DNA from: Candidatus Gastranaerophilales bacterium
GTDB taxonomy: Bacteria > Cyanobacteriota > Vampirovibrionia > Gastranaerophilales > Gastranaerophilaceae
Length of the DNA stretch: 64,000 nt
Assembly (NCBI GenBank): GCA_944322615.1
Contig: CALUPH010000005.1
Span: forward strand, 62,001-126,000
Direction: 5' to 3'
Shown here: piece by piece, positions 3-40,511 of the stretch
How the letters are laid out: each line of letters starts with the position of its first letter
Numbering within the stretch: the first letter of the stretch is position 1
Notes under the pieces: generated by a model
What the model was told of the DNA's origin: nothing
Database searches by the model: none
The model's input: only the letters and a program-made list of their open reading frames with translations
Program-made: the position numbers and the translations under genes

Positions 3-1751
3 GCAATTAAAATATATAAACAAGCATTATCGTATGAAGAAAATGATGACATATATTATTCAATAGCTTTAGCTTATAAAAAATTAAATGATTATGAGAA
101 TATAATACTGAATTATAAAAAAGCTATTGAAATAAATCCTAAGAATTATTCTGCATTATATAATTTATCTCTTGCATATAACGATATTAAGGATATTAAT
201 AATGCAATATTTTATGCAGAAAAATGTATAGAGATAAGAAATGATGATGACGATATTTTTGCACTTTTGTCCGGATACTATGAAGATAAAAAAGATTATG
301 AGTTATCCATAGAGGCATTGAGGCGAGCTATATTTATAAATAATAAAAAGTATATATATTTCTATAACCTTGGTGTTTTATTATCAAAGAAAGAACATTT
401 TAATGAAGCTGAAGCTGCATATATGAAATCAATCGAATTAAATAATACTCATATTGAGTCATATATAAACTTGGCATCATTATATAAGGATAAAGACAAT
501 AATAAAGCATTAGAATATTTACAAAAAGCTTATGATATTAATCAAACGGATGAAAATTTGTTATTAAGTCTAGCGCAAACATTTAGATTGCTTTATAGGA
601 ATAGAGAAAGTATTGAAATTTTAGAGAAACTTACTCAAAATAATAAAAATTGTGCTGAAGCATATTCGCAAATTGCAATAAATTATATGGATTTATGCGA
701 TTATAATAGAGCCCTTGAAAATTATAACCTTGCATTGTCTTTAAATAATGAAAACTTGAATTATAAACATGGCAAAGCTGTTGCACTTAAATATTTAGGT
801 TGTATTGAAGAATCTAAAGAGATTTTAGAACAAATTATAACAAATCCGGATTCATCAATTCAAAGTACAATTACGCTTGGAATGTTATATTTGGCAGACA
901 GACAATTTGAAAAAGGGATGAAATTATACACTCAAAGAAGTAAAGAAAGTAAATTTATTGAAGTTTTTAAAGAAAAAATATGGAATAAAGAAGTAGATTT
1001 AAAAGATAAAAATGTATTAATATATTCAGATTGCGGATTTGGCGATACATTAATGTATTCAAGATTTTTACCCATATTGAATAAACAGGTTAAAAGTTTA
1101 ACACTTCAGACTGATAAAGAGCTTTTATCTTTATTAAAAGAATCATTACAAGGAATAAATATAATAAAAAAGAGTATAACCCCGCCGCAATATGACATTG
1201 TAATGTCATTAATGGATATACAGTATGCTTTAAATATGGACTTTTCTCAAGTTAAGAATACTCAGCCATATTTGACTGCTGATATAAATCTTATAAAAAA
1301 ATATTTTTCATTGGACATTTTTAAAACAAAAAATAAAAAAATAGGTTTATGTTGGCAAGGAAATAAAAGAATATTTAAGAACAGGTCAATTAATTTTGAA
1401 TATATAAAAAAACTTATTACAAAAGGAAACTGTACTTTCTATTCATTCCAATTGCAAAGTGATATTCAAGACTTTGATAATTTCTATAATTTAAAGGATT
1501 ATATTAATGATTTTTCAGATACAGCCGCTTTGTTAATGAATATGGATTTAATTATAACAATAGATTCATCAGTTGCACATTTAGCTGGAGCATTAGGTGT
1601 AAAAACATATTTACTTCTGCCTAAAACAGCAGAATGGCGTTGGTTTTATGATGAAGAAAAAACAATTTGGTATAATAGTGTAAGAATTTTTAGACAAAAC
1701 GAGTCAAATAATTGGGAAGAAGTTATTGAAAGAGTATACAAAGAAATATGA
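3..1751 (+). CDS. TPR protein with C-terminal family-9 glycosyltransferase domain, 5' end outside window
   Basis: The reading frame is open to the left edge, so this is the C-terminal part of a longer protein; the first in-frame start codon inside the window (TTG at 267) is not the real start. The N-terminal two thirds are degenerate 34-residue TPR units (repeated A-Y-x-x-A-I and L-x-L-N patterns, with Asn-rich loops). The last 170 residues resemble the ADP-heptose/LPS heptosyltransferase fold (GT9): G-L-C-W-Q-G-N before a strand, then T-I-D-S-S-V-A-H-L-A-G-A-L-G near the end, the usual nucleotide-sugar site. This TPR-plus-GT9 arrangement is a known class of cytoplasmic glycosyltransferases, some acting on proteins; the acceptor cannot be read from sequence. 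It overlaps the next gene by 4 bases (ATGA), so they are translationally coupled. Confidence 0.8.
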   Translation, partial: AIKIYKQALSYEENDDIYYSIALAYKKLNDYENIILNYKKAIEINPKNYSALYNLSLAYNDIKDINNAIFYAEKCIEIRNDDDDIFALLSGYYEDKKDYELSIEALRRAIFINNKKYIYFYNLGVLLSKKEHFNEAEAAYMKSIELNNTHIESYINLASLYKDKDNNKALEYLQKAYDINQTDENLLLSLAQTFRLLYRNRESIEILEKLTQNNKNCAEAYSQIAINYMDLCDYNRALENYNLALSLNNENLNYKHGKAVALKYLGCIEESKEILEQIITNPDSSIQSTITLGMLYLADRQFEKGMKLYTQRSKESKFIEVFKEKIWNKEVDLKDKNVLIYSDCGFGDTLMYSRFLPILNKQVKSLTLQTDKELLSLLKESLQGINIIKKSITPPQYDIVMSLMDIQYALNMDFSQVKNTQPYLTADINLIKKYFSLDIFKTKNKKIGLCWQGNKRIFKNRSINFEYIKKLITKGNCTFYSFQLQSDIQDFDNFYNLKDYINDFSDTAALLMNMDLIITIDSSVAHLAGALGVKTYLLLPKTAEWRWFYDEEKTIWYNSVRIFRQNESNNWEEVIERVYKEI

Positions 1752-31877: not shown

Positions 31878-32369
31878 ATGCCTGTTAACTCAATCAATAA
31901 TATTTCATTTTCAGGAAGAAATATTGAAAAAAAAGAAGCCAAAAGAGCAAGAAAAGAAGAGTATTACAAGTGGGTTAGTCAAAACCAAGCAAATGATGCT
32001 CTAAAGTTATCTTTAGGTAGAGAAGTTGAAGATGGTAAATACAAGGCAGCAGAAGCAGCTTTTTCAGCAGCAGCTTTAATAGGCACATTTGCTTCATTTA
32101 TAGCAAAAACTTTGGTTGTTGGTAAAGTATCAAGTGGTGCACCTATTACACCAAAGCTTATCAGACAAAATAAAGCAGCAAATATTGGTGTTCTTGCATC
32201 AGCAGGAGCTATTATTGTTGGAAATATGATTAGAAACCATAATATAAAAGAGGCAGATAAAACTGCAAATGAAAGAGGTTTTCTTTCTACCAAAGACCGA
32301 ATGAAAATAAAAAATGCTGATTTAAATTATTATGTAACAAATGAAATATATAATTCACACGTAAATTAG
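31878..32369 (+). CDS. Small membrane protein with N-terminal I-S-F-S-G motif, unknown
   Basis: 163 aa, started at ATG 31878 with GGAGAG 6 bases upstream. The N-terminus is M-P-V-N-S-I-N-N-I-S-F-S-G-R, followed by a charged helix (about 15-55) and two hydrophobic segments (about 58-82 and 100-122) with small residues, then a basic tail. The same kind of N-terminal stretch (Asn/Ser-rich, then S-F-[SK]-G) is on three other unknown proteins of this window. No known domain is visible. Its 3' end overlaps the convergent dehydrogenase gene by 4 bases. Confidence 0.65.
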   Translation: MPVNSINNISFSGRNIEKKEAKRARKEEYYKWVSQNQANDALKLSLGREVEDGKYKAAEAAFSAAALIGTFASFIAKTLVVGKVSSGAPITPKLIRQNKAANIGVLASAGAIIVGNMIRNHNIKEADKTANERGFLSTKDRMKIKNADLNYYVTNEIYNSHVN

Positions 32370-33420: not shown

Positions 33421-34803
33421 CTAAGTTTGATTATTTAGTTCAATATCTTTGAATATTTCAGGAGCTTGCTGTTTAGCATATATAATAAAATTCATTTTAT
33501 CTTTTGCTTCATCTTTTTGTTGATGATTATATCTGTATTGAGTCCATAATCTTGTAATTGCAGAAAGTGTTAGCCCCATAAAAAGCAGACTAAAAGCATA
33601 TGGTACTGCACTTACAAAAGCTGTTTCTTTTGTTAATCTTGAAAGTTCTTTAGCAGGATTTGTATTTCTTGCTTTAGCTATCTTTTCGGCTAATTTTGGC
33701 AGTTCTGCTCTTGTTGGAAGATTCAATCCGTTTTCCGTCGTTTTCGATAAGATATCTGAAAATTTATTATTCTTCTTTAATATTTTTGTAAAAGCTTTTT
33801 CAAATAATTCACCGCCAAAAATTGTATAGAAAACAACCAAAGGTACTCTTGTCCAAACTTCAGCAACGTCAAGCTTTCCTCTATCTTCAGCCGCCTTAGA
33901 ATATCCAAATAAACCTAATATTGCTGTAAGAGCCAATTGCCCTTTACTAAGTGCCAGTTTACCGTTATTATTTGCAAAATCCAAACTGAACTTGCTTAAT
34001 ACATTTGAAACTTTTTCTGATTTTATTCCGGCCTTACTTACCATTTTTGCAGCTGTTTTACCAGGTTCAAGTATAGTCTTACTTACATTCTGCAACAGAT
34101 CTGATTTATGTCCGTTTAATGCTAAAGCAACCCCTGAAGCAACTCCTACTCCTGATAATATTAAAGCTTTTTTTAGCTGTCTTTTAGAATTTTTTTCAAC
34201 TCTTTCTTGTTGTTCTTTATCTTCTGTCTCTTTATGTGTTTTATCTAAATTAGCAATATTATTAAAATTACTTTTTTTGAATGTCTTTAAGGTGAAAAGA
34301 TTTTTTGCAAAACTCAATGTATATTCAGCAATAGGAATTGCAGCACAAGCTAAAACAATACCTGCTTTTGTTGAAATTGCACGTTTTTTTACTTCGTCAC
34401 TAATTGCTGTATTTGATGTAATTTGTTCAACTGTCTTTGGAATTTGTTCATTTACTTTATCTTTTAAGGATGTTGGCAGTATATTTTTAAATATTTTATT
34501 TCTAAATAATTTTTCTCCTAAAATAGGTGATGCAAAATAAAATATTCCGGATTCAAGAAATTCTAAAAAAGACATTTCAGCAAAATCAGCTTTACTTCTG
34601 GCAAAGATAGCTTTAGGTGCCCAATTTGTTGCTGTATCTTGAATAAATCTGGTTGAAGATAAATTTTCTTGAGATTTTAGAAAAATATCTGCAATCTTAG
34701 CTGCACCACTTAATGTTGCTGAACTTTTAAAAGATATATTTTTTTGTCTTTTATTTGAGTTATTGTTATTTTTTAAATTATTATAGTTATTTACCTTAAT
34801 CAT
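33421..34803 (-). CDS. Large membrane-associated protein with N-terminal I-S-F-K-S motif, unknown
   Basis: 460 aa. The first 30 residues are almost all Asn, Lys and Ser, then N-I-S-F-K-S-S. Hydrophobic segments lie near 148-168, 213-230, 290-303, 320-340 and 395-420; between them are Lys-rich helices, including a stretch of charged K-E-T-E-D-K-E-Q-Q-E type. This build resembles the unknown protein at 51923-52930 (same mix of Ala-rich membrane helices and basic linkers). I do not recognise a named family and infer a lineage-specific one. No catalytic motif is seen. It is the first gene of a two-gene unit with the dehydrogenase. Confidence 0.65.
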   Translation of the reverse strand: MIKVNNYNNLKNNNNSNKRQKNISFKSSATLSGAAKIADIFLKSQENLSSTRFIQDTATNWAPKAIFARSKADFAEMSFLEFLESGIFYFASPILGEKLFRNKIFKNILPTSLKDKVNEQIPKTVEQITSNTAISDEVKKRAISTKAGIVLACAAIPIAEYTLSFAKNLFTLKTFKKSNFNNIANLDKTHKETEDKEQQERVEKNSKRQLKKALILSGVGVASGVALALNGHKSDLLQNVSKTILEPGKTAAKMVSKAGIKSEKVSNVLSKFSLDFANNNGKLALSKGQLALTAILGLFGYSKAAEDRGKLDVAEVWTRVPLVVFYTIFGGELFEKAFTKILKKNNKFSDILSKTTENGLNLPTRAELPKLAEKIAKARNTNPAKELSRLTKETAFVSAVPYAFSLLFMGLTLSAITRLWTQYRYNHQQKDEAKDKMNFIIYAKQQAPEIFKDIELNNQT

Positions 34804-34833: not shown

Positions 34834-34862
34834 AAAAAAGCTGCCTATTTATAAGGCAGCTT
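34834..34862 (-). terminator. Intrinsic terminator, minus strand
   Basis: The 9-bp stem AAGCTGCCT / AGGCAGCTT with a T6 run on the minus strand only. It ends a transcript coming from the FlhA-like gene, or a short unit starting near 34965. Confidence 0.85.
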
Positions 34863-34882
34863 CTAAATTATTTTAACGAGGT

Positions 34883-34951
34883 TCACATTCGCAACAAATA
34901 ATGACTGCCTGACTCTAAGCCTTGCATTTGCATAATCATATTCATCATCAT
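34883..34951 (-). other. Possible 22-codon Met-rich small frame or 3' UTR / small RNA
   Basis: ATG at 34951, stop at 34883. It reads M-M-M-N-M-I-M-Q-M-Q-G-L-E and ends L-L-R-M, with 9 Met in 22. A weak promoter-like TTGAGA (34988-34993) with TTATAT (34964-34969) lies upstream and a strong terminator downstream. No ribosome-binding site is seen, so coding is doubtful; it may be the 3' UTR of the FlhA-like gene. Confidence 0.25.
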
Positions 34952-35026
34952 TTGTTTGTTAAAATATAACATAGTATCCCTTGTTTTTCTCAAGGTTAAC
35001 TCAATAGATTTTCTTTGTCAATATAT

Positions 35027-36310
35027 TTATATAATATCTATAGTCTTTATTTCTATATTTTTTAGTATTTCATTATATGCTATCAATTCTGTATTTATAA
35101 AAACTTCGTTTATTATTTTATATAATTTCAATCTGACTTCTTTATTGCAGATAATCAAGTTATTAGCTCTTTTATCAATTTTGTTTAATAGTTTATTTAT
35201 TATTGTTTTTTCTTGATTATATGATTTACACTCTATAATATCTTTATATGTTTCATTTGATAATTCATAACCTAATATATAATTTTCTTTTGCATATCTA
35301 TTAGTGATTTGTGTTCTATAACTAATATCTAACCTGATTTTCTCACTTATTTTATCTGCTTCTTGCTCTAAATAATATTCATTATAAAGAAGAACAAATT
35401 TTATAAAATCTTTAACAGAGATATTTTCCTTTATAAGATTAGACATAGTCATTATAAATTTTCTATTGATACTCTTTTTATCAATAAATTTAAAATCATT
35501 TTTATATACTTTTTCAGATTTTTGCAATAATTTATATAAATCTGATATTCGCAAAATTTCATCAGCATTTTTTATACATATAGACTTTAATACATCATAT
35601 ATTATTCTTATTGAGTTAAATTTATTTCCTTCAAAATTATAAGGAATGTCTGCTTCTTTTACCCAATATACAGGTTTATCAAAAATAATATAATTTTCTG
35701 TAATACATTCTTTACTAAAATCAGAAGGAATTTGGTCAATACAAATTAAATTTGGGTATACATTAAAAGCTACTTTAATATTATTCCTTACTAATATTTG
35801 GCATTCATTCTTATTTGCAATAGATATATCAACAAGTCTAATGTAGGGAATAATATATCCCAATTTTTGAATTAATTCATTTCTTAATAGCTGTATAAAA
35901 AAAAGTAAAGTTCCATCTTGCTTGTTATAATCACTATCTGAATACTTTGTATCCACAAGTCTTATAAGATTTTTACCAAGTATTATTTTTATAATATCTA
36001 CTCCAATACCGTCTGAAATTGAATCATATTCAAGATTAGGAGTATCATTAATTGCCGGTAATAATGATTTGCTTGTTAAAATAATTATTATACGTATTAC
36101 AAAAAATAAAATATAAACAATTACAGTAAAAAATATAACTAGTTTTAGAATATAAGATGGTAAAAGATTAAACAAATAAACTAGATATAAAAGTAAAATA
36201 TTTATAATGATATATAAAAGAATTGGTCCAGAAAATATTCTGGATTTTCCATACTCAAGCACTTGACAAAGCTTAACATTATTAAGATACTCATTCTTTA
36301 AATTTAGCAT
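35027..36310 (-). CDS. Orphan FlhA-like (FHIPEP) cytoplasmic-domain protein with only two membrane helices
   Basis: 427 aa. Residues about 28-50 and 54-80 are two membrane helices. From residue 100 it follows the cytoplasmic half of FlhA/SctV: I-G-V-D-I-I-K-I-I-L-G-K-N-L-I-R-L-V-D (102-120), L-L-R-N-E-L-I-Q-K-L-G-Y-I-I-P-Y-I-R-L-V-D (141-161), P-V-Y-W-V-K-E (213-219), S-I-R-I-I-Y-D-V-L and A-D-E-I-L-R-I-S-D-L-Y-K-L-L (249-262), N-L-I-K-E-N-I-S-V-K-D-F-I (291-303). These match the family order (LGygLipLVD, LRxxLgxxlPxIRIxD, aWI, hLxevixxxaxELLgRqevxxLL, LLxExVxIRDl). The eight-helix channel domain and its FHIPEP loop are missing. No other secretion or flagellar gene is in the window. It is either a derived export-gate component or a repurposed docking domain. 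Start without a Shine-Dalgarno. Confidence 0.65.
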   Translation of the reverse strand: MLNLKNEYLNNVKLCQVLEYGKSRIFSGPILLYIIINILLLYLVYLFNLLPSYILKLVIFFTVIVYILFFVIRIIIILTSKSLLPAINDTPNLEYDSISDGIGVDIIKIILGKNLIRLVDTKYSDSDYNKQDGTLLFFIQLLRNELIQKLGYIIPYIRLVDISIANKNECQILVRNNIKVAFNVYPNLICIDQIPSDFSKECITENYIIFDKPVYWVKEADIPYNFEGNKFNSIRIIYDVLKSICIKNADEILRISDLYKLLQKSEKVYKNDFKFIDKKSINRKFIMTMSNLIKENISVKDFIKFVLLYNEYYLEQEADKISEKIRLDISYRTQITNRYAKENYILGYELSNETYKDIIECKSYNQEKTIINKLLNKIDKRANNLIICNKEVRLKLYKIINEVFINTELIAYNEILKNIEIKTIDII

Positions 36311-36327
36311 ATTTATATACTACCCAA

Positions 36328-36368
36328 ATAAAAGAAATCATTAACTAAAATGTTAATGACTTCTTTTA
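36328..36368 (-). terminator. Terminator of the hydCBA operon
   Basis: AAAAGAAATCATTAAC / GTTAATGACTTCTTTT, an almost perfect 16-bp stem with loop TAAAAT and a T-rich end on the minus strand, just after hydA. Confidence 0.8.
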
Positions 36369-36387
36369 ATCTAAGTAATATCTATAC

Positions 36388-38139
36388 TTAAATATCCTTA
36401 TAAGAACCTTTGAATTTATCAGAGTATGTAGTATGCAACAGATGATGTGCAATTTCACTACCTGGTTTACCTCCTAAACATTCATTATAAAGTTTTATAA
36501 TGTCAGGATTTTGATGTGAACGTCTGAATTCCAAGTTTCTATCTTCTTCATATAAGCCTTCTGCTCTTTTTTCTTTAATAGAAGAATCAGAACAGCTGAT
36601 TGGTTGACCGCCTCCGTTTACACAGCCTCCCGGGCAAGCCATTACTTCTAAAATATGAAAATCTGATGTTCCCGCTTTAATTTCTTTTAAAGATTTTTCA
36701 GCTTCTTTTAATGTAGATACAACTCTAACTTTAACAGATGTACCTTTTATATCAACAACTAAATCTTTTGTTCTTGATTTAGCATCGACACCTCTTAAGG
36801 TTTTAATATCTACATTTGAAAGTTCTTCACCTGTTACCATGTTGTATGCTGTCCTTACTGCAGCTTCAGCAACACCGCCTGACGCACCAAAAATAGTTGC
36901 AGCACCGGTATATTGTCCAAATGGAGAATTTGCTTCTTCTTCTTTTAACTTTCTAAAGTCAATACCTGCAGCTTTTATCATTTTTGCAAATTCTTTTGTT
37001 GTAAGAACAAAATCTGTTTCGTTTATTAGTTGTTCTCTTATTGCTTCATATTTTTTCGCAGTACAAGGCATAATTGAAACTACAACAATATCTTCTTTTT
37101 TATAACCTTCATAATATTTTGGCAAAAATTCCTTTAATACAGGAGACAACATGCCTTGTGGAGACTTACAAGTTGATAAATGAGAAAGTAATTCAGGATG
37201 TTGAGTTTCCAAATATCTTACCCAAGCAGGACAGCAGGATGTAAATAAAGGCAACTTTTCACCTTTTGTTAATCTTTGAACAAATTCGTTAGCTTCTTCC
37301 ATTATTGTTAAATCAGCAGAAAAATTAGTATCAAAAATCAAATCAAAACCTAATCTTCTAGCCGCTGCGTATATTTTGCCAATTGTATTTTCACCGGGTT
37401 CTAAGTTAAATTCTTCACCTAATGCAACTCTAACTGATGGTGCTATTTGGACTACAACTTTTTTTGTTGAATCATTTATTTTTTCCCAAACGGCATCTAT
37501 ACTTGACTTTATTGTTAAAGCACCTGTAGGACAAACTGCTTGACATTGTCCGCAGAATACACAATCAACCTGACTTAAAAATCTACCGTTCATTGGTTCT
37601 ATTCTTGTATTAGAGCCTCTGTTTACAAATCCGAGTACACTGTGACCTTGAAATTCAGAACAAGCTCTTACGCAAGCACCGCACAATATACATTTTGAAG
37701 GATCTCTAACAATAGAAGGATTATAATCATCAACAGGCAAATAATCTTCTTTTTCAAGTTTCGGAAACCTAATATCTGTAATACCATATTCCATTGCATA
37801 CTTTTGAAGTTCACAATTACCTGATTTATCACAAGTCAAGCATTCACATTTATGATTTGCCAATAATAATTCTAAAACTGTTTTTCTAATTTTCCTTACG
37901 CGATCGGTATTTAAATGAACTTTTAAACCTGCTTCAGGGGGCATTGTACAAGATGATTGAATACCGCGTCCTTCAATTTCAACAACACACATACGGCAAG
38001 CACCAAACGAAGTTAAATCAGGACGGTAACAAAATGTTGGAACATTTAAGCCTGCTTTTCTTATTACTTCTAACAAATTAGGTTCATCAGAAAATTCAAC
38101 TTCCATTCCGTCTATAAATAATGTTTTATTATCTGTCAT
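36388..38139 (-). CDS. hydA: [FeFe]-hydrogenase catalytic subunit HydA (NAD-linked, multimeric)
   Basis: 583 aa. The N-terminal [2Fe-2S] domain uses C37, C48, C51, C64. The His-Cys3 cluster is H96, C100, C103, C109. Two [4Fe-4S] sites are C150/153/156/160 and C193/196/199/203. The H-cluster signatures are L1 T-S-C-C-P-A-W (300-306), L2 M-P-C-T-A-K-K (357-363) and L3 M-A-C-P-G-G-C. It makes or takes up H2. With HydB and HydC upstream it is the group A3 type that couples NADH and reduced ferredoxin (electron-confurcating or bifurcating). Maturases HydE, HydF, HydG are not in the window. Oxygen-sensitive, so it implies an anaerobe. Confidence 0.95.
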   Translation of the reverse strand: MTDNKTLFIDGMEVEFSDEPNLLEVIRKAGLNVPTFCYRPDLTSFGACRMCVVEIEGRGIQSSCTMPPEAGLKVHLNTDRVRKIRKTVLELLLANHKCECLTCDKSGNCELQKYAMEYGITDIRFPKLEKEDYLPVDDYNPSIVRDPSKCILCGACVRACSEFQGHSVLGFVNRGSNTRIEPMNGRFLSQVDCVFCGQCQAVCPTGALTIKSSIDAVWEKINDSTKKVVVQIAPSVRVALGEEFNLEPGENTIGKIYAAARRLGFDLIFDTNFSADLTIMEEANEFVQRLTKGEKLPLFTSCCPAWVRYLETQHPELLSHLSTCKSPQGMLSPVLKEFLPKYYEGYKKEDIVVVSIMPCTAKKYEAIREQLINETDFVLTTKEFAKMIKAAGIDFRKLKEEEANSPFGQYTGAATIFGASGGVAEAAVRTAYNMVTGEELSNVDIKTLRGVDAKSRTKDLVVDIKGTSVKVRVVSTLKEAEKSLKEIKAGTSDFHILEVMACPGGCVNGGGQPISCSDSSIKEKRAEGLYEEDRNLEFRRSHQNPDIIKLYNECLGGKPGSEIAHHLLHTTYSDKFKGSYKDI

Positions 38140-38157
38140 AATTCTATCCTTATTCTA

Positions 38158-40020
38158 TTACTCTAAGACTATTGCTCTAAACGGACAATTCGTCAAACAA
38201 GCTTCACACTTAATACATTTTTCCTGATTTATATGGTGCGGATTTTTTACAGTTCCTTCAATAGCACCAACAGGACAAACTCTTGCACATTTTGTACAAC
38301 CACGACATAAGTCTTCATTTATTACAACTTTCTTCATTGCTGTACAAACTCCGGCAGGACATTTTTTGTCTTTTATGTGAGCAATATATTCATCTTTAAA
38401 ATATTTTAATGTTGAAAGTACAGGATTTGGAGCTGTTTTACCAAGTCCGCATAATGAACCGTCTTTTACTACATGAGCCAATTCTTCTAACTCATCCAAA
38501 TCTTTCATTTCACCTTTACCGGCAACAATCTTTTCAAGTATTTTCAATAGATTTTTTGTACCTTCTCTGCAAGGTACACATTTTCCGCAACTTTCATGTT
38601 GAGTAAAATTCATAAAGAATCTTGCAACTTCAACAATACAAGTTTTATCACTCATTACAACAAGTCCGCCTGAACCAACCATTGCACCTGCTCTGATTAA
38701 GTTATCATAGTCCATTGGAATATCAAGATGTTCTTCTGTTAAGCAGCCTCCTGATGGACCACCGATTTGAACAGCTTTAAATTTTTTACCATCTCTCATA
38801 CCACCACCGATATCAAAAATGATTTCTCTTAAAGTTGTACCCATTGGAACTTCTATCAAACCTGTATTATTTACATCACCTGTTAATGCAAATGTTTTTG
38901 TTCCTTTTGAAGTTGCTGTTCCCATTTGTGAAAACCAATCAGCACCTTTTAATATAATAACAGGTACATTTGCAAGTGTTTCTACGTTGTTTATCAAAGT
39001 TGGTCTGCCAAATAAACCCTTATTTGCCGGGAATGGCGGTTTTGGTCTTGGCATTCCTCTTTCACCTTCAATAGAAGCAATTAATGCTGTTTCTTCACCG
39101 CAAACAAAAGCACCTGCCCCTTCTTTAATATGAATATCTAAAGAGAAGTTGCTTCCCATAATATTTTTGCCTAAGAAGTTTCTTTCTTCCGCATCTTTTA
39201 TTGCTTTTCTTAAACGTTTAATTGCTAAAGGATATTCAGCTCTTACATAGATATAACCTTCATCAGCACCAATAGCAAATGCTGCTATAGCCATACCTTC
39301 AAGAAGTTTATGAGGGTCACCTTCCATAACGCTTCTATCCATAAATGCGCCCGGGTCACCTTCATCTCCGTTACAAACAATATATGATTTACCGCCTCTG
39401 TTTGCCGCCGTAAATTTCCATTTTCTTCCGGTAGGGAAACCTCCGCCGCCTCTACCTCGTAAACCTGATTTTTCTATAGTTTCAATTACATTATCAGGAT
39501 TATTTTCTTCAATAACTTTTGCTAATGCTTCATACCCTCTAACAGCAATTGCTTCATCTATGCTTTCAGCATTTATATTACCGCAATTTGCAAGTGCTGT
39601 TCTTGTTTGTTTTGCATAAAAATTAATATGTTCATCATCTGGAACATGTTGATGTGTTTTAGGATCAACATACATTAGCCTTTCAACAGGCTTATTATTT
39701 TTAATATGACTTTCAAAAATTTCTTCTACATCACTTTCTTTTACTTTTACATAAGTGATTTTCATATCAGGTATTACAACTAAAACACCTTGTTCACAAA
39801 ACCCGTGACAACCTGTCGGAACAACTGTCATTTTGTCATATTGAGTTAAAATTGATACATTTGCACCTAATTCTTTGAATTTTTCAATTACCTTTAAAGA
39901 ACCATTAGCAACACAACCTGTGCCGGCACAAACTAACACTCTTAATCCTTGAGATTTTATTAAATCTTTTGCTTTATCTTGTTCATTTTGCATATTAATG
40001 TTCAATTTTGTTTTTTCCAT
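38158..40020 (-). CDS. hydB: NADH-binding hydrogenase subunit HydB (NuoF-like)
   Basis: 620 aa. An N-terminal thioredoxin-like [2Fe-2S] domain (C-A-G-T-G-C-V, then G-C-H-G-F-C) precedes the NuoF core. The core has the FMN/NADH glycine loops G-L-R-G-R-G-G-G-G-F-P-T-G-x-K-W and N-G-D-E-G-D-P-G-A, and the C-terminal S-C-G-K-C-V-P-C-R-E-G [4Fe-4S] site. Two extra ferredoxin motifs end the chain (C-R-G-C-T-K-C-A-R-V-C-P, C-I-K-C-E-A-C-L-T-N-C-P). This is the flavin subunit where NADH and ferredoxin electrons meet. It overlaps hydC by one base. Confidence 0.94.
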   Translation of the reverse strand: MEKTKLNINMQNEQDKAKDLIKSQGLRVLVCAGTGCVANGSLKVIEKFKELGANVSILTQYDKMTVVPTGCHGFCEQGVLVVIPDMKITYVKVKESDVEEIFESHIKNNKPVERLMYVDPKTHQHVPDDEHINFYAKQTRTALANCGNINAESIDEAIAVRGYEALAKVIEENNPDNVIETIEKSGLRGRGGGGFPTGRKWKFTAANRGGKSYIVCNGDEGDPGAFMDRSVMEGDPHKLLEGMAIAAFAIGADEGYIYVRAEYPLAIKRLRKAIKDAEERNFLGKNIMGSNFSLDIHIKEGAGAFVCGEETALIASIEGERGMPRPKPPFPANKGLFGRPTLINNVETLANVPVIILKGADWFSQMGTATSKGTKTFALTGDVNNTGLIEVPMGTTLREIIFDIGGGMRDGKKFKAVQIGGPSGGCLTEEHLDIPMDYDNLIRAGAMVGSGGLVVMSDKTCIVEVARFFMNFTQHESCGKCVPCREGTKNLLKILEKIVAGKGEMKDLDELEELAHVVKDGSLCGLGKTAPNPVLSTLKYFKDEYIAHIKDKKCPAGVCTAMKKVVINEDLCRGCTKCARVCPVGAIEGTVKNPHHINQEKCIKCEACLTNCPFRAIVLE

Positions 40021-40511
40021 TATTTATCTTCCTTTATTAAGGTATCTAATATTATAGTGATAGCATCTGAAGTCATTTGAGGATATACTTTATCATTGAT
40101 AACAACTACAGGAGCTAACCCACAAGCACCTAAACAACTTACTGTTTCTAGAGAGAATAAACCATTTTCACTTGTAAGTTGTTTGTCTTTCATATTAAGT
40201 TTCGCTCTAATAGCATTTAAAACTGGCATTGAACCTCTAACGTGGCATGCTGTTCCATCACAAACTTTAATTTCATATTTACCTTTTGGCTCCAATGAAA
40301 ATTGTGCATAAAAAGTTGCCACCCCAAAAACTGTTGCGGGTGACAATCCTTCTATCTTTTCACCTATATAAATCATTGCATCTTCAGGTAAATAACGATA
40401 TATTTCCTGTACTTTTTGCAAAATTGCAATTAAATTAGATTTTTTACCACCGAACGATTGGATAATTTCATCCAACTTTGCTGTGCTGATTACAGAAGAT
40501 CCTGCACTCAT
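40020..40511 (-). CDS. hydC: Hydrogenase [2Fe-2S] subunit HydC (NuoE-like)
   Basis: 163 aa. A helical N-terminus (Y-R-Y-L-P-E-D-A) leads to the thioredoxin-like [2Fe-2S] fold with cysteines in C-D-G-T-A-C-H-V-R-G and C-L-G-A-C-G-L-A-P. It passes electrons in the HydABC complex. It is first in the operon hydC-hydB-hydA, the usual order. TATAAT-like sequence (minus strand 40553-40558) lies about 45 bases upstream and may be its -10 box; the -35 is unclear. Confidence 0.93.
   Translation of the reverse strand: MSAGSSVISTAKLDEIIQSFGGKKSNLIAILQKVQEIYRYLPEDAMIYIGEKIEGLSPATVFGVATFYAQFSLEPKGKYEIKVCDGTACHVRGSMPVLNAIRAKLNMKDKQLTSENGLFSLETVSCLGACGLAPVVVINDKVYPQMTSDAITIILDTLIKEDK

Follow-up and report, generated by a model that had tools for sequence, protein, structure and literature searches.

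A separately encoded cytoplasmic domain of an export-gate protein has a precedent in Helicobacter FlhX, a paralogue of the FlhB C-domain; FlhX derives from FlhB, unlike the protein described here, which derives from FlhA. In FlhA, the pocket in which FliT, FliS, and FlgN dock includes Asp456, Phe459, and Thr490 (PMC5932034, PMC8166844), and Gly368 is the hinge glycine of FlhA (PMC9431611). In the intact Salmonella apparatus, TM7–TM8 of FlhA pack on the TM2–TM6 core of the adjacent subunit (2026 preprint, PMC13308203). Incomplete or filament-less flagellar gene sets have been described in gut members of the lineage (Di Rienzi et al., 2013, PMC3787301; Soo et al., 2014, PMC4040986).

The window (the whole 64-kb stretch of DNA that was analysed) encodes a 427-aa paralogue of the non-flagellin FlhA of its own order, Gastranaerophilales; the protein is truncated at its N-terminus, with the four cytoplasmic subdomains D1–D4 all kept (Table 1).

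Table 1. Features of the 427-aa gene, its product, and its surroundings, in window coordinates.
Feature	Position	Strand	Basis or remark
Truncated FlhA paralogue (two-helix hairpin and FlhA-C), 427 aa, ATG start	35027..36310	-	Profiles and AlphaFold model
Membrane hairpin, residues 24–88, at the position of FlhA TM7–TM8	36047..36241	-	Hydropathy and AlphaFold
FlhA cytoplasmic domain (FlhA-C), residues 103–427, subdomains D1–D4	35030..36004	-	Alignment and model
Approximate subdomain borders: D1 103–186 and 233–252, D2 187–232, D3 253–333, D4 334–427			
Tyr207 codon (equivalent of FlhA Asp456, chaperone pocket)	35690..35692	-	Alignment
Presumed [FeFe]-hydrogenase hydABC-like genes, upstream	36388..40511	-	Named from sequence; left neighbour also in G018, G011, G013
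460-aa protein without Pfam family, right neighbour of the insertion site	33421..34803	-	
77-bp spacer with AT-rich inverted repeat, between hydA and the 427-aa gene	36311..36387	-	Read from sequence
Tract with zero differences between the source genome and G018 (CALUSI010000002), 1.63 kb	34935..36564		DNA comparison

A truncated FlhA paralogue

The preliminary description of this gene had recognized an FlhA cytoplasmic domain by eye, and profile and fold comparisons bear this out. In hmmscan, residues 91–419 matched positions 317–656 of Pfam PF00771 (FHIPEP), the C-terminal half of the model, at 77 bits (E 1.6e-21; cut-off 29.1 bits), and the Pfam match of the orthologue in genome G030 extends back to model position 263. 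Searching PDB sequences with phmmer retrieved Bacillus subtilis FlhA-C (3mix) at E 4.7e-11 and EscV-C at ~7e-7, while profile–profile comparison with Gastranaerophilales FlhA gave E 6.6e-37 across residues 84–426. The NCBIfam FlhA model (TIGR01398) scored 65 bits (E 3.6e-18), far under its equivalog cut-off of 772 bits, and the SctV model (hrcV, TIGR01399) reached 49.7 bits against an equivalog cut-off of 692. An injectisome SctV identity was rejected because its score lies below that of FlhA (50 vs. 65 bits). The C-domain of SctV (MxiA, CdsV, YscV, InvA) does have the same fold as our protein, and CdsV and MxiA are among the best structural matches, but the export operon of this genome is of the flagellar type (FliE, FliF, rod proteins).

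An AlphaFold model built on a 25-row alignment reached pLDDT values of ~80–93 for most of residues 105–427, with a few weaker blocks at 61–70. It superposes on FlhA-C over all four subdomains (VIA-align Z 28.1, 2.5–2.9 Å, ~310 residues), which is the structural match to SD1–SD4 on which the reading by eye had been made to depend. Top matches in Foldseek and VIA-align were FlhA-C and SctV-C structures only, with the next fold at Z < 6. A model computed from the three truncated orthologues without FlhA rows had a mean pLDDT of 46, and SctV/FlhA-C still came first (E ~1e-8). Chance similarity to FlhA is ruled out by the independent profile libraries together with the fold search.

At ~25% identity to FlhA, the protein retains the four subdomains in the same order and the D1 core motifs GYIIPxIR, NExxIxVR, and G368. 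Alignment with FlhA shows that TM1–TM6, the FHIPEP loop, Asp208, and Asp249 are all missing. Hydropathy and the model agree on only two membrane helices, within residues 23–88 (model helices 2–47 and 52–88), as had been read from the sequence, and since the protein alone can thus provide no proton channel, the earlier view that it could not work on its own as a normal export gate stands. By position, the hairpin plausibly descends from FlhA TM7–TM8; hhalign of residues 1–100 against TM7–8 detected no profile similarity, and the anchor may thus have been replaced. Truncation through a sequencing error, or a nearby 5′ remnant of flhA, was considered and rejected, as no remnant lies between hydA and the 427-aa gene and orthologues of about equal size occur in two other species.

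In phylogenetic trees, the truncated proteins (T427) form one clade (100/100) that lies among the order's non-flagellin FlhA, apart from flagellar FlhA. The full tree groups T427 with the other two FlhA-C-only families at a place where long branches meet, so that its branching point inside the FlhA lineage is only loosely placed; in an AU test, a position of T427 as sister to the genus's own FlhA was not rejected (p 0.38), nor was it established. The copy in genome G013 still resembles FlhA in places (GMLLPKLAALRQRICDETGY), which fits a derivation from the non-flagellin FlhA lineage.

Distribution, locus, and selection

A survey of relatives, which the preliminary description had proposed, found orthologues in 5 of the 41 genomes of the genus and none in the other 49 genera (241 genomes sampled from the order). 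The hydrogenase operon precedes the gene in four genomes. The G013 orthologue (37% identity) occupies the same place, between hydA and the 460-aa gene; the G030 orthologue (45–46% protein identity) lies at a different locus. The site is empty in G001, G006, and G036, whose HydA is ~99% identical: there, hydA is followed by ~266 bp and then the 460-aa gene. A functional tie to the hydrogenase operon was rejected because the G030 copy is located elsewhere and close relatives possess the operon but not the 427-aa gene, which makes the linkage probably not functional. The inverted repeat in the spacer upstream of the gene went unscored in a terminator scan.

Two further observations concern the surroundings. 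A conserved ORF of ~29 codons that ends in ...ESGSHYLLRM lies between the 427-aa and 460-aa genes (window ~34885–34972, minus strand), with its own terminator (34836–34864) and a TTGACA-like box; it is conserved in the empty-site relatives, and its region has no Rfam match. Proteins of unknown family at 31878–32369 and 33421–34803 carry a short N-terminal “ISFSG/ISFK” motif, and motifs resembling it begin other proteins of the same genome, in L042 and L040.

Comparison of the source genome with G018 revealed no difference in the 1.63-kb tract where ~40 or more were expected, whereas the adjoining DNA is about 2.5–4.4% different, neighbouring genes have a dS of 0.08–0.68, and identity at the flhA locus is 95.4%. 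The G011 copy, in pieces on two contigs, has one difference in the 513 bp compared. A tract that is identical between species while its flanks diverge points to recent spread of the 427-aa gene between species, to judge from the DNA by homologous recombination through its flanks. Carriage by phages or plasmids was rejected: viral contigs and phage records held no relative, and plasmids only Bacillus-type flhA genes.

Estimates of dN/dS for the gene are ~0.38 against G030 and ~0.65 against G013, with dS near saturation in both comparisons, vs. 0.04–0.11 for neighbour genes shared with G013. The reading frame is intact despite 40% nucleotide divergence from G030, and the G030 and G013 frames are open over their full length with zero stop codons; simulated unconstrained change gave ~10 stops at as little as 0.1 per site, and unconstrained drift would give ~10–28 in those frames. 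The missing stops argue that constraint is weak but real, and from these codon comparisons the gene evolves fast yet under purifying selection. Should the gene instead be a nearly neutral duplicate heading for loss, a truncated flhA copy under weak constraint that spread by hitch-hiking recombination, its elevated dN/dS beside that of its neighbours, its G+C of 21% (28.6% for the window), and its presence in just five genomes would all be accommodated. The open frames, the pocket changes common to three divergent orthologues (see below), and the recent spread of one intact allele run counter to such a fate, which we consider unlikely.

The export apparatus and other FlhA-C paralogues

The domain had originally been called an orphan with no type III secretion gene nearby. 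This is correct for the locus, as matches to the families checked (FlhA, FlhB, FliP, FliM/N) all lie outside the window. It does not extend to the genome, which holds a full-length FlhA with an export apparatus and two further FlhA-C-only paralogues; a genome search of the kind initially proposed therefore leaves “orphan” valid only locally. There are five FHIPEP matches at four loci, encoding proteins of 700, 488, 427, and 265 aa, the last with two matches. The 700-aa, full-length FlhA belongs to a rod/basal-body operon (L039, G000:C6:98001-118000) together with FlgF/G-, FlgB-, and FlgC-like rod proteins, a transglycosylase, FliE, FliF, FliH, FliI, and a weakly FliG-like protein, and FlhB, FliP, and FliM/N-like proteins are encoded elsewhere, away from this operon. 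Flagellin had no match in the source genome, nor in 33 of the 35 genomes of the genus. That the rod/basal-body/export operon is kept across a flagellin-less genus suggests a secretion system of the flagellar type that has no filament. Flagellin does occur in other families of the order, usually alongside an additional FlhB and FliP set; these families hold two FlhA/FlhB/FliP sets.

The 488-aa protein (L040:8901-10367, G000:C2:156401-157864; Pfam FHIPEP E 3.8e-50), in which an N-terminal coil region precedes a C-terminal FlhA-C, is present once per genome nearly throughout the order and is probably a second, constant FlhA-C paralogue. Like the 427-aa protein, it is an FlhA-C without the channel, occurs in the same genome, and falls into the same group of the full tree. 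Unlike it, the 488-aa protein is soluble, with a coiled N-terminus and no membrane helix, is found order-wide, keeps the D456 equivalent, and evolves more slowly. The 265-aa paralogue (L041:9605-10402, G000:C8:66605-67402) consists of D1 and D3 of FlhA-C only, with D2 excised and D4 missing; it occurs in 2 of 40 genomes of the genus (the source genome and G011), with 100% protein identity and nearly identical DNA. No discussion of FlhA-C-only paralogues was found in the literature searched.

Cargo pocket and candidate role at the export gate

At the positions of the pocket residues Asp456, Phe/Tyr459, and Thr490, the 427-aa protein has Tyr, Phe, and Asp, respectively, and so departs from the FlhA pocket at two of the three. 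The D456 equivalent is Tyr in all three truncated orthologues compared (Y/Y/Y), and the equivalents of T490, L461, and K548 are D/E/Q, K/K/K, and N/N/E. Full-length non-flagellin FlhAs of the order keep Asp456 and mostly keep Thr490 and Lys548. Taking as invariant those residues that are identical in six FlhAs of the order, the 427-aa protein retains 22/55 in D1, 1/13 in D2, 12/65 in D3, and 6/75 in D4; D1, with the hinge Gly368, is thus the best-kept part. The linker residues that stabilize the Salmonella FlhA-C ring are not conserved, and the full-length FlhAs of the order differ there too.

The preliminary description had suggested a possible docking ring for a derived export system; the genus indeed has a filament-less export system. 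The explanation that we tentatively favour over the others is that the 427-aa protein serves the filament-less export gate as an additional docking arm or a competing one, a reading to which we give somewhat less than an even chance and in which we infer both assembly with the gate and an effect on cargo choice. The hairpin and D1 would place its FlhA-C at or beside a filament-less flagellar-type gate, built by the cell's full-length FlhA, FlhB, and FliP, and its rewritten cargo pocket would there alter which substrates the gate accepts. Since TM7–8 decorate the core of an adjacent subunit, an arm made of TM7–8 and FlhA-C is a physically sensible module that might, in principle, attach to a different subunit. 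Searches did not find the gene in 36 of the 41 genus genomes, most of which have an export system, and it is thus dispensable; D2–D4 are also highly divergent, so that gate binding may have been lost.

The same architecture might make the protein a dominant-negative regulator, which would bind FliH–FliI–FliJ or FlhB-C, or displace the TM7–8/FlhA-C arm, and would dampen export, not redirect it. A gate position taken by a protein with no proton-channel core would be inactive, and D1 makes ring contacts together with D3 (PMC8166844); the residues for FliJ/linker contacts are not conserved, however, and we think this role improbable. It is somewhat less likely still that the FlhA-C fold has been repurposed outside export as a membrane scaffold, acting as a ring or adaptor of another inner-membrane complex. 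Most family-invariant residues are gone from D2–D4, the chaperone-pocket residues are replaced, and a hydrogenase operon, not export genes, precedes the gene in four genomes, all of which would suit a scaffold; yet FlhB and FliP are still present in all carriers, and the differing G030 locus and the relatives with hydrogenase but no 427-aa gene make the linkage to hydrogenase probably not functional.

The docking-arm reading may be widened to the whole order, whose secretion machine would then have a docking ring re-equipped by separate FlhA-C arms (427, 488, and 265 aa), with substrate choice modular and partly horizontally acquired. We hold this to be rather unlikely and extend the same reserve to its corollary, that the membrane-anchored 427-aa arm, with its rewritten cargo pocket, would be the one traded between species.

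FlhA is usually viewed as a single indivisible polypeptide, channel and docking domain in one, that forms a homo-nonamer. A docking domain that is separately encoded, under selection, and altered in its pocket would permit testing cargo recognition uncoupled from proton-driven export. The finding is, moreover, a pointer to a secretion system of flagellar origin that a whole genus of gut bacteria has retained although the filament is missing.
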